From an uncultured Holophagaceae bacterium (GTDB lineage: Bacteria > Acidobacteriota > Holophagae > Holophagales > Holophagaceae): a DNA stretch of 64,000 nt. The notes under the pieces are model-generated. The model was not told the origin of the DNA. It did not search any database and worked only from the letters and a program-made list of their open reading frames with translations. Of this stretch, positions 1,640-53,028 are shown piece after piece (the first letter of the stretch is position 1; every line of letters begins with the position of its first letter). The DNA lies in assembly GCA_903913215.1 (NCBI GenBank), contig CAIWKE010000003.1, forward strand, positions 1 to 64,000, written 5' to 3'. The translations under genes and the position numbers were made by a program.

Positions 1640-1870
1640 AAAACGACAGTGAATGTCTGTTTTAGGTGAGCGTGGGGGGGGCTCTGCGGAGCGGGGACCC
1701 ACTGGGAGCGCAAGCCAGTGGCGACTCGCTCTGGCGGAGCCGCTCTCTGCCGGGCGATCTCCTCAACCACGAATCCGCTTTGCGGCTTCGCGGGCTGCGG
1801 TGATTCCTTTTACTGTCGAACGCGGCATTTAGCCGCGTCCGACTCGCGCTACGCGCTTGACGTAAAAGGA

Positions 1871-1966
1871 GGGCCGGGCTTGCCACGGCACTCGGGGGAA
1901 CGACTTAGGGCTGCTTCTTCCGACCTGACCCGGTTCATCGCACCCCGATGCATGGGGCCCGGCTTG
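1871..1966 (-). ncRNA. ffs: signal recognition particle RNA, small bacterial type
   Basis: Reverse complement reads GCCGGGCCCCATGCATCGGGGTGCGATGAACCGGGTCAGGTCGGAAGAAGCAGCCCTAAGTCGTTCCCCCGAGTGCCGTGGCAAGCCCGGCCC; contains the GGTCAGGTCNGGAAG..AGCAGCC domain IV hallmark and closing GC stem. Confidence 0.9.
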
Positions 1967-2253: not shown

Positions 2254-5200
2254 ATGAAGATTGCCCGTCACTTCACGAAGGCCGGTCACGACCCCCTGGA
2301 AGGGATCCCCTTCGTCCCGCGCACCAGCCGCATCTCGAAGCTCGACGGCACGGTGGTCTTCGAGGCCAAGGACGTGATGGTGCCTGAGACCTGGTCCCAG
2401 GTGGCCGTGGACATCCTGGCCCAGAAGTATTTCCGTCGGAAGGGCATCGACGAAGCCAATGGCGGGGAGAAGGACGCGCGGCAGGTCTTCCATCGCCTAG
2501 CGGGCTGCTGGCGGCATTGGGGCGAGTCTCACGGCTATTTTGAGACGGGTGAGGACGCCCAGGCCTTCTATGACGAGCTGACCTACATGCTCGCCAACCA
2601 GATGTGCGCGCCCAATTCGCCCCAGTGGTTCAACACCGGCCTGCACTACGCCTATGGCATCTCGGGCCCGGCCCAGGGCCACAGCTTCGTGAATCCCGTC
2701 ACGGGCGGCATGGAGAAATCCACTTCGGCCTATGAGCGGCCCCAGCCTCATGCCTGCTTCATCCAGAGCGTGGCCGATGACCTCGTGAACGAGGGCGGCA
2801 TCATGGACCTGTGGACCCGCGAGGCCCGCATCTTCAAGTACGGCTCCGGCACCGGCACCAACTTCTCCAAGGTGCGCGGCTCCGATGAGAACCTCTCGGG
2901 GGGAGGCAAGAGCTCGGGCCTCATGAGCTTCCTGGCCGTGGGCGATCGCGCCGCCGGCGCCATCAAGAGCGGCGGCACCACGCGCCGCGCCGCCAAGATG
3001 GTCTGCCTGGACCTGGACCACCCCGACATCGAAGCCTTCGTGGACTGGAAGGTCACGGAGGAGCGCAAGGTGGCCATGCTGGCCGCGGGCAGTGCCCTGG
3101 TGCGCCGCCACTGGGACAACATCTGCCTGAGCGTGGAAGGCTCCACCTCCAGGGACACCAATCCCCTGACCAACGAGGCCCTGCGAAAGGCCCTGGCCAA
3201 GGCCAAGCGCGAGGGCGTGCCCGCAGCCTTCCTGACCCAGTGCCTGGGCCGCTTGGCGGAAGGCGACCTGACCCGCGACCTCCTGGGCTATGACACCTCT
3301 TGGGATGGTGAGGGCTATGCCACCGTGGGCGGCATGAACTCCAACAACAGCGTGCGAGTCCCGGATCCCTTCATGCGCGCCCTGGAGATGGACGGCGACT
3401 GGGAACTCAAGCGCCGCACGGACGGCAAGGTCTCGAAGAAGCTCCGGGCCAAGGATCTCTGGGAGAAAGTGAACCGCGCCGCCTGGGCCTGCGCCGACCC
3501 CGGAATCCAATTCAACACCACCATCAACGACTGGCACACTTGCCCCGAAGACGGCCCCATCAACGCGAGCAACCCCTGCTCTGAATACATGTTCCTGGAT
3601 GACACGGCCTGCAACCTGGCCTCGCTGAACCTCTGCACCTTCCTCACGGAGGACGGCGGCTTCGACCTGGCGGGCTATCGCCACGGCATCCGCCTCTGGA
3701 CCGTGGTGCTGGAAATCAGTGTGCTCATGGCCCAGTTCCCCAGCGACTCCATCGCCCGGCTCAGCTACGAGTTCCGCACCCTGGGCCTGGGCTACGCCAA
3801 CCTGGGCGCCATGCTCATGCGCATGGGCATCCCTTACGACAGCACGGACGGCACCCAGTGGTGCGCGGCCCTCACGGCCATCCTCACGGGTGATGCCTAT
3901 GCCGCCAGCGCCGAAATGGCACGGGAGCTGGGGCCCTTCCCCGGCTACCAGAAGAACGCCGCCCACATGCTGCGCGTCATTCGCAACCACCGCCGCGCCG
4001 CCTACAATGCGCCTGCCTCGGAGTACGAGCAGCTCTCCATCCGGCCTCAGGGTCTGCATGGCGCTGGCGTGCCCAAGCGCATCGTGGAGGCCGCTCGCGA
4101 AAGCTGGGACACGGCCCTCACCTACGGCGAGCAGTGGGGCTTCCGCAATGCTCAGGTGTCGGTGCTGGCCCCCACGGGCACCATCGGCCTCCTCATGGAC
4201 TGCGACACCACCGGGGTCGAGCCCGACTTCGCCCTGGTGAAGTTCAAGAAGTTGGCGGGCGGCGGCTACTTCAAGCTGGTGAACCGCGCCATCCCCGAGG
4301 CCCTGGCCCGCATCGGCTACTCCTCCAAGCAGATCCAGGAGATCGAGCGGCACGTGGTGGGCTGGCTGCAGATCACGGACGAGACCCCCGGTATCACCCG
4401 CAGCATGCTCAAGGGTGCCGCCTGGGCTGAGGAGGAGATCGCCTCTGTGGAGCAGAAGCTCCCCACGGCCTTCGACCCCGCTTACGCCATCGACGTGGAC
4501 CGCCTCAAGAACGACTTCAGCGCCGAGCAGGTGGAGACCTTCCTCCTGGCCCTGGCGGGTTCCATGACCGTGGAGGGGGCGCCCTACCTCAAGGATGAGC
4601 ACCTGCCCATCTTCGATTGCGCCAACCGCTGCGGCCGGACCGGACGTCGCTACATCGCCCCCATGGGCCACCTGCGCATGATGGGCGCTGCCCAGCCCTT
4701 CCTCAGCGGCGCCATCAGCAAGACCATCAACCTCCCCGCCGAAGCCACCGTACCCGAGATCGGCAGCATCTACGAAGCCAGCTGGCAGCTCATGCTCAAG
4801 GCCGTGGCCCTCTACCGTGACGGCTCCAAGATGAGCCAGGCCATGGCCACCAGCCTGGACCTGCTGGACGGCGTGGATACGCTGATGGACGAGCAGGCCA
4901 CCCCTGCCGAGAAGACGCCCGTGCTGGCCCAGGCCCTGACCAATCAGCTGGTCCGCACCTACCGGCGCCGCCTGCCCAACCGCCGCGGCGGCTACACCCA
5001 GTCCGCCACCATCGGTGGCACCAAGCTCTACCTGCGCACCGGCGAATACGAAGACGGCAGCTTGGGCGAGATCTTCCTCGACATCCACAAGGAGGGCGCC
5101 GCCTTCCGCGCCGTGCTCAACTGCTTCGCCATTGCCGTCAGCATGGGCCTTCAGCACGGCGTGCCCCTGGAAGAGTTCTGCGATGCCTTCCTGTTCACCC

Positions 5201-5668: not shown

Positions 5669-5733
5669 CCGCGAAGACGGGAAGACCACGAAGAAGATCC
5701 TCTTCTTTCTTCGTGGTCTTCCTGTCTTCGCGG
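5669..5733. repeat. heptad-type inverted repeat, ACGAAG variant
   Basis: CCGCGAAGACGGGAAGACCACGAAGAAGA / TCTTCTTTCTTCGTGGTCTTCCTGTCTTCGCGG. Confidence 0.85.
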
Positions 5734-11010: not shown

Positions 11011-11079
11011 TACTGATCAACACCAAGACACCAAGGAAGAAGTTCTCTTGGTGGCCTGTTTGGTGTCTTGGTGGTTATC
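11011..11079. repeat. heptad-type inverted repeat, ACCAAG variant
   Basis: CTGATCAACACCAAGACACCAAGGAAGAAG / TTCTCTTGGTGGCCTGTTTGGTGTCTTGGTGG. Confidence 0.85.
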
Positions 11080-36091: not shown

Positions 36092-36469
36092 TTAATTCCC
36101 GCGCCCACTGAGGGCCTGCAGGCCCACGCCCAGCACGATGACGCTGAGGGCCACCCAGCGCATGGGGGTCATGGCTTCGCCCAAAAAGGCGCGGGCCATG
36201 AGGGCGTTGGCCAGGAACCCCAGGGCCAGGAAGGGGTAGGCGTAATTCACCTGCACCAGCGAGAGGGCACCCAGCCACACCACCACGCTCACGGCGTAGC
36301 AGGCCAGGCCCGTCAGCACCCAGGGCTCCAGCATCAGCCGGAACAGCGGTCCCACCTCCAGCGTCATGCCCCCGGCGGCGTTGAGGCCCTTCTTCAGGCA
36401 GATCTGGGCGGCGGCGTTGAGCAGCACCCCAAGCACGATGAGGGGAATGGCCTTTACGTTGGGGCTCAA
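36092..36469 (-). CDS. EamA/SMR-like small transporter (ArnE-like)
   Basis: Four-TM protein; NAAAQICLKKGLNAAG, VQVNYAYPFLALGFLANALMARAFLGEAM. Confidence 0.75.
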   Translation of the reverse strand: MSPNVKAIPLIVLGVLLNAAAQICLKKGLNAAGGMTLEVGPLFRLMLEPWVLTGLACYAVSVVVWLGALSLVQVNYAYPFLALGFLANALMARAFLGEAMTPMRWVALSVIVLGVGLQALSGRGN

Positions 36470-38274
36470 GGGGCCTCCTGGGGACTGGGCTGAGGACTGG
36501 ATGCGGGACGTTTCTTAAGCAACAGGATCTCACCTCCACCTGTGGGTACGGCGAGGAGGATCTCGAAGCGGGCCCGGACTGCGGCGTCCAGGCCCCGGTC
36601 GTCCTGCTCCCATTCCGTGCGCTGGGCCACCAGGCGGGCTTCGGGAGCCATGGCCTCCAGGGCCTTGGCATCCCGCAGTTCGGGCATGAGATGATCGGTG
36701 TAGACCATGACCCCGCTGCGGATGGTCTGCCAGTAGAAGACCGGACGGCCCTGGATGAACGGTTGGACAGCGGCTGTCCAGCGGCGGTAGCTCTTGGGCG
36801 GATCCAGGCGGGCGAAGAGCCAGGTGCCCCCCGTGAGATAGAGCAGGCCCAGCGCGAGGGCCGCAGCGGGCACCAGGCCGGTCCCCCTGCCCCGCCGGAC
36901 CTGCAGCAGGAGCAACAGCCAGCCCGCGCCCAGCCCCAGAGCCATGAGCCGCAGGGGCCCCAGAAACGGCGCGGCCTGGGCCTGGAGCTTGGCACCGCCC
37001 AGGCCCAGCGCCAGGGCCGCCAGTCCCAGCGTGGGGATGGCCAGGCCCCCGGCCAGGAGGCTGCCCAGGCGCCGGGCGCGGGACGCGTCCAGGGTCTGGA
37101 GGAAGTCCGCCAGCAGCAGGGCCAGGAAGGGGTAGGCCATGAGCAGGTACTTGCCCTGCTTGCTTTGCACCAGGCTCAGGAACGCGAAGGGCACCAGGAA
37201 GGCCAGGAGCAGGAAGCGGCGGGTCGGATCCGCCAGCCCCTTCGTGCGGCGCAGATGCAGGGCCAGGGCCGGGAGCAGCAGCACCCAGGGAAAGAAGTCC
37301 CCGAGGATGTACTCGGCGTACTTGTACATGGGCTGGATGTGGTCCCAGGCGTGGGTGGCCCGGTTGAAGTTCTGGAGGATCACCAGCTCGTAGACGTAGT
37401 GGGCCCCACCCTTCAGCCCCGCCGCCACATACCAGGGCGCCACGATCACCAGCGTGATCCCCAACCCCGCGAGGATCTGAGTGCGCCGCAAGATCTTCAA
37501 TTCCCGCTGCCAGGCCAGGAACACGCCGATCAGCAGCACCGACAGCACCGGCGCCAGAGGCCCCTTCGCCAAGAACGCCAGCGCCAGCCAGACATAAGCG
37601 CCCAGGAACCAACGTCGAGATTCCCGTTCAATTACAGATCCACCACGAAGACCCGAAGGCACAAAATAGAATTCCTTCTTCGCTTCACTTTGCGTCTTCG
37701 TGTCTTCGTGCTGGATCAGTTGATCTTTTCCAGCCCTGAGTAGGAGGTATCCCCCGAGCCAGGAGAGCCAGCTCCAGGCAAGGAGGGCGCTGAAGAGGAG
37801 GTCGATCTGGATGAACTGGCTCTGCCAGAACCAGAGGGGCGTGGTGGCGAGGATGAGGGCGGCGGGCTCGGCGCAGCGGGGCTCCAGGAAGCGCTGGGCC
37901 CAAGCGCGGAAGGCCGCCAGGAAGGCCACGGCGGTCAGCACCGAGGGCAGGCGCAGGGCCCAGGCGGCCACGCCTTGCGTGAAGCCCAGGCCGCCGGTCA
38001 GGAAGTCGAGCACCTGCGCGAAGGCCTTCATCACCCAGTAGTACAGGATGGGCTTCTCGCTGTAAGGCAGGCCGTTGAGATAGGGGAGCAGCCAGGTTCC
38101 CCGCAGGCGCATCTCCTTCACGCACTGGGCGAAGTCCGGCTCATCCGGGGCCCAGAGGTCGCGCATGGGCAGCACCGCCAGCAACAGGGCGGCGAAGAGC
38201 AGTTCCGGCAGGTGCGCGCGCAGCCAAGTCGCAATGCGTGACGGGAACAGCGAGGGGGACGGGGCTGCGGACAT
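36466..38274 (-). CDS. ArnT-like glycosyltransferase (GT39/GT83 family)
   Basis: MRDLWAPDEPDFAQCVKEMRLRGTWLLPYLNGLPYSEKPILYYWVMK; polytopic. Confidence 0.85.
   Translation of the reverse strand: MSAAPSPSLFPSRIATWLRAHLPELLFAALLLAVLPMRDLWAPDEPDFAQCVKEMRLRGTWLLPYLNGLPYSEKPILYYWVMKAFAQVLDFLTGGLGFTQGVAAWALRLPSVLTAVAFLAAFRAWAQRFLEPRCAEPAALILATTPLWFWQSQFIQIDLLFSALLAWSWLSWLGGYLLLRAGKDQLIQHEDTKTQSEAKKEFYFVPSGLRGGSVIERESRRWFLGAYVWLALAFLAKGPLAPVLSVLLIGVFLAWQRELKILRRTQILAGLGITLVIVAPWYVAAGLKGGAHYVYELVILQNFNRATHAWDHIQPMYKYAEYILGDFFPWVLLLPALALHLRRTKGLADPTRRFLLLAFLVPFAFLSLVQSKQGKYLLMAYPFLALLLADFLQTLDASRARRLGSLLAGGLAIPTLGLAALALGLGGAKLQAQAAPFLGPLRLMALGLGAGWLLLLLQVRRGRGTGLVPAAALALGLLYLTGGTWLFARLDPPKSYRRWTAAVQPFIQGRPVFYWQTIRSGVMVYTDHLMPELRDAKALEAMAPEARLVAQRTEWEQDDRGLDAAVRARFEILLAVPTGGGEILLLKKRPASSPQPSPQEAP
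37635..37722. repeat. heptad-type inverted repeat inside a CDS, ACGAAG variant
   Basis: AGATCCACCACGAAGACCCGAAGGCACAAA / TTTGCGTCTTCGTGTCTTCGTGCTGGATCAGTT. Confidence 0.85.
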
Positions 38275-51520: not shown

Positions 51521-51612
51521 GGACCACCAAGACACCAAGCCACCAAGAAAAGCGCACCAACTAACGATCAACTGTCCCCCCTACCCTTCTTGGTGCCTTG
51601 GTGGTGATCAGT
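51521..51612. repeat. heptad-type inverted repeat, ACCAAG variant
   Basis: GGACCACCAAGACACCAAGCCACCAAGAA / CTTCTTGGTGCCTTGGTGGTGATCAGTT. Confidence 0.85.
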
Positions 51613-52875: not shown

Positions 52876-53028
52876 ACTGACCCAACACGAAGACTCGAAG
52901 ACGCGAAGAAGGAAAAACATGAAGGCACCCTGGCCATCTGGGGCATCCCCATGGGGCCGGAGGTCAGGGCAGCGGGCAGGTTGCACCTTCGTGTCTTCGT
53001 GTTAGATCAGTTAATCAGCTAATCAGTT
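52876..53028. repeat. heptad-type inverted repeat, ACGAAG variant, long loop
   Basis: AACACGAAGACTCGAAGACGCGAAGAAG / CTTCGTGTCTTCGTGTTAGATCAGTT. Confidence 0.8.

Follow-up and report, generated by a model that had tools for sequence, protein, structure and literature searches.

An interspersed palindromic repeat, probably a tolerated insertion, lies in frame in an ArnT-type glycosyltransferase gene of Holophagaceae

Results and discussion

The glycosyltransferase gene and the repeat within it

The window, i.e. the whole 64,000-nucleotide stretch of DNA that was analysed, contains a glycosyltransferase gene (Table 1) that matches PF13231 (PMT_2) with an E value of 2.7e-7. The encoded protein aligns with ArnT (PDB 5EZM) by phmmer (E 8e-13), and its structural model matches the ArnT structures 5F15 and 5EZM by Foldseek (E about 1e-14). 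Based on the model and these similarities, the protein is assigned to the ArnT/PMT_2 family, with a predicted GT-C fold.

The minus-strand open reading frame runs without a stop codon through an inverted repeat, where it encodes KDQLIQHEDTKTQSEAKKEFYFVPSGLRGGSVIERES. The two arms of this repeat (37634-37665 and 37689-37720) are 32 nt each, are separated by a gap of 23 nt, and exhibit 84% complementarity. The hairpin on the minus strand has a predicted energy of -27.7 kcal/mol, versus -9.2 +/- 2.0 for 200 shuffled sequences (z = -9.2). On the TGATCTTTTCC side, the adjoining nucleotides resemble the outer ends of the intergenic copies, which are rich in A/T, as judged from a comparison of the flanks of 75 copies. 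Rfam gave no match at the element; elsewhere in the window, it identified a bacterial small SRP RNA (RF00169, positions 1869-1964, minus strand). A role of the in-gene element as a terminator was considered and rejected, as no terminator-like site is present there.

Table 1 Features of the glycosyltransferase locus and related repeat copies in the window
Feature	Positions	Strand	Basis
ArnT/PMT_2-type GT-C glycosyltransferase, 602 aa; probable start codon 38274-38272	36466..38274	-	Profile, sequence, fold
37-codon stretch KDQLIQ...ERES replacing the short loop of empty-site orthologues	37621..37731	-	Protein and DNA alignments, 37 orthologues
Palindromic repeat element, core	37634..37720		Inverted repeat, hairpin z -9.2, family members genome-wide
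Probable outer end of the element, TGATCTTTTCC side; putative limit	37721..37734		Flank comparison, 75 copies
Family copy, CACCAAG type	11015..11079		Arm-unit scan, same architecture as in-gene repeat
Family copy, CACCAAG type	51523..51605		Arm-unit scan, same architecture as in-gene repeat
Family copy, CACGAAG type, 86-nt interior	52876..53011		Arm-unit scan, same architecture
Related hairpin, CGCGAAGACNGGAAG variant	5669..5733		Arm-unit scan, same architecture

In the AlphaFold2 model, the insert forms a predicted loop between the predicted helices 157-192 and 212-237, with a pLDDT of about 41, versus mostly more than 85 for the flanking helices. About 24 residues of the 37-codon stretch are modelled as disordered. 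Despite the insert, the ArnT fold is kept and the remainder of the protein is modelled well. Counting the helices according to the topology of ArnT, the loop is presumably cytoplasmic and away from the active site. The insert therein looks tolerated rather than disruptive, in line with the earlier note on this DNA, which had proposed a tolerated insertion in a membrane-protein loop.

With regard to selection, pN/pS outside the insert ranges from 0.31 to 0.38 between the window allele (WIN) and its relatives, and from 0.22 to 0.25 among other pairs; the first range indicates that the host gene is under purifying selection. Nevertheless, the end branch of WIN is long (0.33) and its pN/pS is slightly raised, which counts to some extent against the insertion being tolerated: selection on the host gene is perhaps slightly relaxed in the WIN lineage.

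The repeat family in the genome and in the genus

The arm unit CACGAAGACACGAAG occurs 19 times in the window with up to three mismatches (0.96 expected) and 110 times in the whole genome with up to two mismatches, versus 15 times for a reversed control. Pattern matches and the stretches around them yielded 75 two-armed copies, to which the classification was confined. They come from three genomes, i.e. that of the window and those of two other carriers of the insert, L018 (AM-2014-D4_bin-538) and L020 (GL140_3). The arms comprise two to four units each of the 8-bp sequence CAC[C/G]AAG[A/G], which face each other across a variable interior. The core typically measures about 65-80 bp, with a median of 76 bp among the collected copies, and the usual outer ends of the 75 copies are AAAAGATCAACTGATC and, at the opposite side, GATCAGTTGATCTTTT.

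The family exhibits two subtypes, CACGAAG and CACCAAG. The outermost units of both arms agree in 69 of the 75 copies (C-G in 39, G-C in 30, mismatched in 6), so the two arms change together. Exact arm matches range from 0 to 136 per genome across 47 congeners, and the distribution within the Acidobacteriota is patchy, with at least one arm match in 49 of 199 genomes. A literature search for the letters of the repeat, which is a weak method, retrieved a single unrelated paper on eDNA and no description of this family. The in-gene copy is a diverged member of this genome-wide family. The hairpin, the open reading frame and the genome-wide copies confirm the earlier description of the segment as an intergenic-type inverted repeat in frame in a glycosyltransferase gene.

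If a typical copy is read together with 18 bases on each side, about 2.2 of the six frames are free of stops. An open frame alone is thus unsurprising, and selection after insertion suffices to account for its retention. When the flanks of 77 copy records were scanned with a codon model, five records proved to be coding on both sides in a single frame, without a stop. Two of the five turned out to be intergenic when inspected, and the remaining three are the orthologous glycosyltransferase copies. L181 was rejected as an in-gene copy because the next gene starts only downstream of it, and L210 because it lies in a spacer with only an antisense ORF. Copies read in frame within a gene are therefore rare and cluster at a single site: they account for 3 of the 75 two-armed copies, one set of orthologous glycosyltransferase codons in the three carrier genomes.

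Occupied and empty sites

Thirty-eight related loci were fetched, and 37 orthologues were included in the protein and DNA alignments. Nearly all of the aligned orthologues exhibit a loop of about 12 residues between the motifs LLLR and RRWF (34 alignment rows have a short loop, and L043 stops short of the site), versus 40, 44 and 42 residues in WIN, L018 and L020, respectively. The three carriers share the position and the reading frame of the insert, which contains no stop codon in any of them. Compared with the usual loop, the protein is longer by about 28 residues, fewer than the 35 or so first estimated.

The site was also scanned in 47 congeners and in 77 genomes of the family, 58 of which have the gene. 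Among these 58, only G000 (the window genome), G057 and G064 match through the insert, and in 34 congeners the two halves of the gene match separately, a few codons apart. G057 holds the L020 allele and G064 the L018 allele, with coinciding contigs (C377 and C107). As the insert is present in three separate assemblies, a misassembly is unlikely. Alignment with relatives lacking the insert, which had been proposed as a check, finds empty-site alleles to be the rule, with 34 congeners exhibiting the short loop.

The same alignment defines neither the exact ends of the element nor a target duplication, because the loops of the empty-site orthologues are too diverged. Intergenic pairs of occupied and empty sites, sought between Geothrix paludis and G. 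terrae or SG200, were not clean either, the spacers being too diverged. The nearest empty-site orthologue is only about 80% identical to WIN in protein sequence, and the partial complementarity of the arms points to decay; these data do not support a recent insertion. The earlier note had further regarded the locus as direct evidence that the element moves and can create protein sequence. The second part stands insofar as repeat DNA became coding sequence; for strict evidence of movement, we found no close strain pair, exact ends, target duplication or linked transposase.

Some loci deserve separate mention. An intergenic remnant of the element (L280 versus L306 and L313) is common to G. paludis and SG200 and is deleted in G. 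terrae, so loss by deletion does occur. In L043 (contig C134 of G063), the contig ends at 3738-3740, a few codons before the insertion site, and over the 85 residues that precede this site the protein is 91% identical to that of the window gene; L043 is possibly a fourth carrier whose contig was interrupted at the repeat when it was assembled. The G. paludis orthologue (L038:3957-4012) seems to be devoid of about 80-100 internal residues (query 327-423) and is otherwise aligned. The orthologue in L044 (3678-3723) is in two pieces, with eight stops if read straight through, which by its sequence suggests a frameshift or an assembly error near query residues 261-278.

Origin and history of the insert

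Taken together, the data make it very probable that a member of this repeat family was inserted in frame into the host gene and was tolerated there. The history of the insert is much less sure than the insertion itself. A tree built from the host gene concatenated with its neighbours places L018 beside the empty-site L012 as its sister (support 100/98), and L020 beside the empty-site L019 and L039 (95/94). The minimum number of changes on this tree is three; the three carriers as one clade are rejected (p-AU 3.5e-5), as is a grouping of L018 with L020 (p-AU 6e-4).

Our preferred history combines few origins, one or two, with passage of the allele between species and/or losses. Few origins are favoured because gene copies are so rare: with no other in-frame gene copy among the 75, three unrelated strikes on the same codons are unlikely. 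Also in its favour are the co-varying arm types, the L018 in-gene copy exhibiting CACCAAG on both arms, as do most copies of its genome. Several observations speak against this history. The in-gene cores are nearer to intergenic copies than to one another, the pattern expected of independent insertions; sliding identity reveals no recombination tract in the codons on either side; losses would need to restore the ancestral 12-residue loop; and the host gene, if its tree is taken by itself, leaves a single carrier clade unrejected at the 5% level (p 0.058).

The strongest competitor is that the three carriers acquired the element independently of one another at the same loop, the loop being a hot spot or a rare tolerant place. 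We consider this a real possibility, to which we nonetheless give less than even chances. It accommodates the three changes on the concatenated tree, where each carrier stands beside empty-site lineages. Repeated insertion is also favoured because the cores resemble intergenic copies, C/G subtype included: each in-gene core is closer to such copies than to the other in-gene cores, which take ranks 13-42 of 60. The outer flanks common to the carriers are also consensus ends of the family. In contrast, the 72 further copies from the same three genomes include no in-frame gene copy. L018 and L020, moreover, align without gaps beyond the element (NPPTIEK and HPNTFGK), and with the subtype masked L018 is the best match of L020, and L020 the third best of L018.

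A single old insertion in the ancestor of the 26-row clade, followed by many losses and no transfer between species, is unlikely. The identical position and frame in all three carriers would fit, and the internal branches are short, which makes the tree hard to resolve. However, L012, L019 and L039, which are sister lineages, exhibit ordinary loops of 12-13 residues like those of the outgroups (RGPGEETAPGEH versus RGHAAPRSAGEH), and an imprecise deletion would not restore such loops. It is highly improbable that the repeat is instead a native, selected part of the gene, e.g. a structured mRNA or a DNA site: the hairpin is recognisable in all three carriers and its first arm encodes similar residues (QIYHEDTK and LIQHEDTK), but it is absent from nearly all orthologues, AlphaFold2 gives it no confident structure, and its pN/pS is 0.41-0.97 (over few codons) versus 0.25-0.38 for the rest of the gene in the same pairs.

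The mechanism that we propose for the insertion is as follows. An interspersed repeat of the genus, which forms a hairpin and is non-autonomous, would have entered the loop codons between two transmembrane helices. The gene would have survived because the insertion did not shift the frame in net terms and because the repeat is open in some frames. The gene now encodes about 28 extra residues that are disordered in the model, probably cytoplasmic, presumably translated and possibly neutral. Under the few-origins history, the occupied allele may then have passed between species by homologous recombination and/or have been lost, and intergenic copies may have rewritten the hairpin core by ectopic gene conversion. 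We only tentatively suggest that the in-gene core was repeatedly rewritten by other genomic copies, on both arms and including the C/G subtype, or that the same codons were re-targeted. If this were true, an interspersed DNA element would keep editing a protein loop across species.

Relation to known repeats

Hairpin repeats that are read in frame within conserved genes have their best-known examples in Rickettsia and Wolbachia, and some occur in enterobacteria. The RPEs of Rickettsia are hairpins found both between genes and in frame, in 19 reading frames (Ogata et al. 2000, reviewed in PMC2229807), and translation and activity have been demonstrated for a guanylate kinase that contains an RPE (PMC2229807). 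Like the RPEs and the palindromic repeats of Wolbachia, which form hairpins of about 100-150 bp, the Holophagaceae element is an interspersed hairpin repeat with intergenic copies that also lies in frame in a conserved gene, for which empty-site orthologues are present. It differs in the phylum of its host, in its arms made of 8-bp units, in its shorter core and in the number of genes concerned, as only one gene among the 75 copies carries it, in the same frame in three carriers. The likeness is one of architecture and in-frame reading; by analogy, the case appears to work as RPE and RU repeats do, and we claim no kinship to them by sequence.

RU-1/ERIC, RU-2 and RU-3 of enterobacteria are MITE-like repeats with open frames, some of which are fused in frame to genes (Delihas 2007, PMC2759123), including genes for membrane proteins. 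The Holophagaceae element shares the in-frame fusion, and its terminal inverted repeats are those expected of a MITE. RU-1 and RU-2 differ in having target duplications (table in PMC2229807), which are not definable for our element.

REPIN or BIME elements, which are moved by REP-associated Y1 transposases (RAYTs; PMC3116915, PMC2817692), are likewise palindromic, mostly outside genes and present in high copy number. That the repeat is of this type is the least probable of the readings considered: the short palindromes in paired arms, the mostly intergenic location and the 0 to 136 matches per genome are in its favour, but the arms are tandem 8-mers with no visible GTAG tag, and the RAYT link was rejected because Y1_Tnp (PF01797), the only transposase covered by our searches, was not found in the window genome and is present in 5 of 47 congeners as IS200-like copies that are never flanked by the element and are unrelated to its copy number (Mann-Whitney p = 1.0).

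By its sequence, the locus appears to be a bacterial case in which repeat DNA of a mobile type has become protein. Rickettsia provides precedents for such events, and the locus brings the in-frame hairpin repeat to a genus of Acidobacteriota (Geothrix-type) with several sequenced isolates. As empty and occupied alleles are available in dozens of species, the arrival, spread and rewriting of such a repeat in a working gene become directly testable. The host protein shares fold and family with ArnT (5EZM/5F15) and differs from it by the extra disordered loop, which makes this ArnT-like glycosyltransferase a simple enzyme for measuring the cost of an added loop. Finally, several copies of the repeat (L186:442-558, L192:1001-1111, L220:1053-1172 and L218:950-1065) exhibit a second small palindrome, CTCGTGTATCGCC..GGCGATACCGAGAAG, nested in an arm or in the interior, which apparently belongs to another repeat family.
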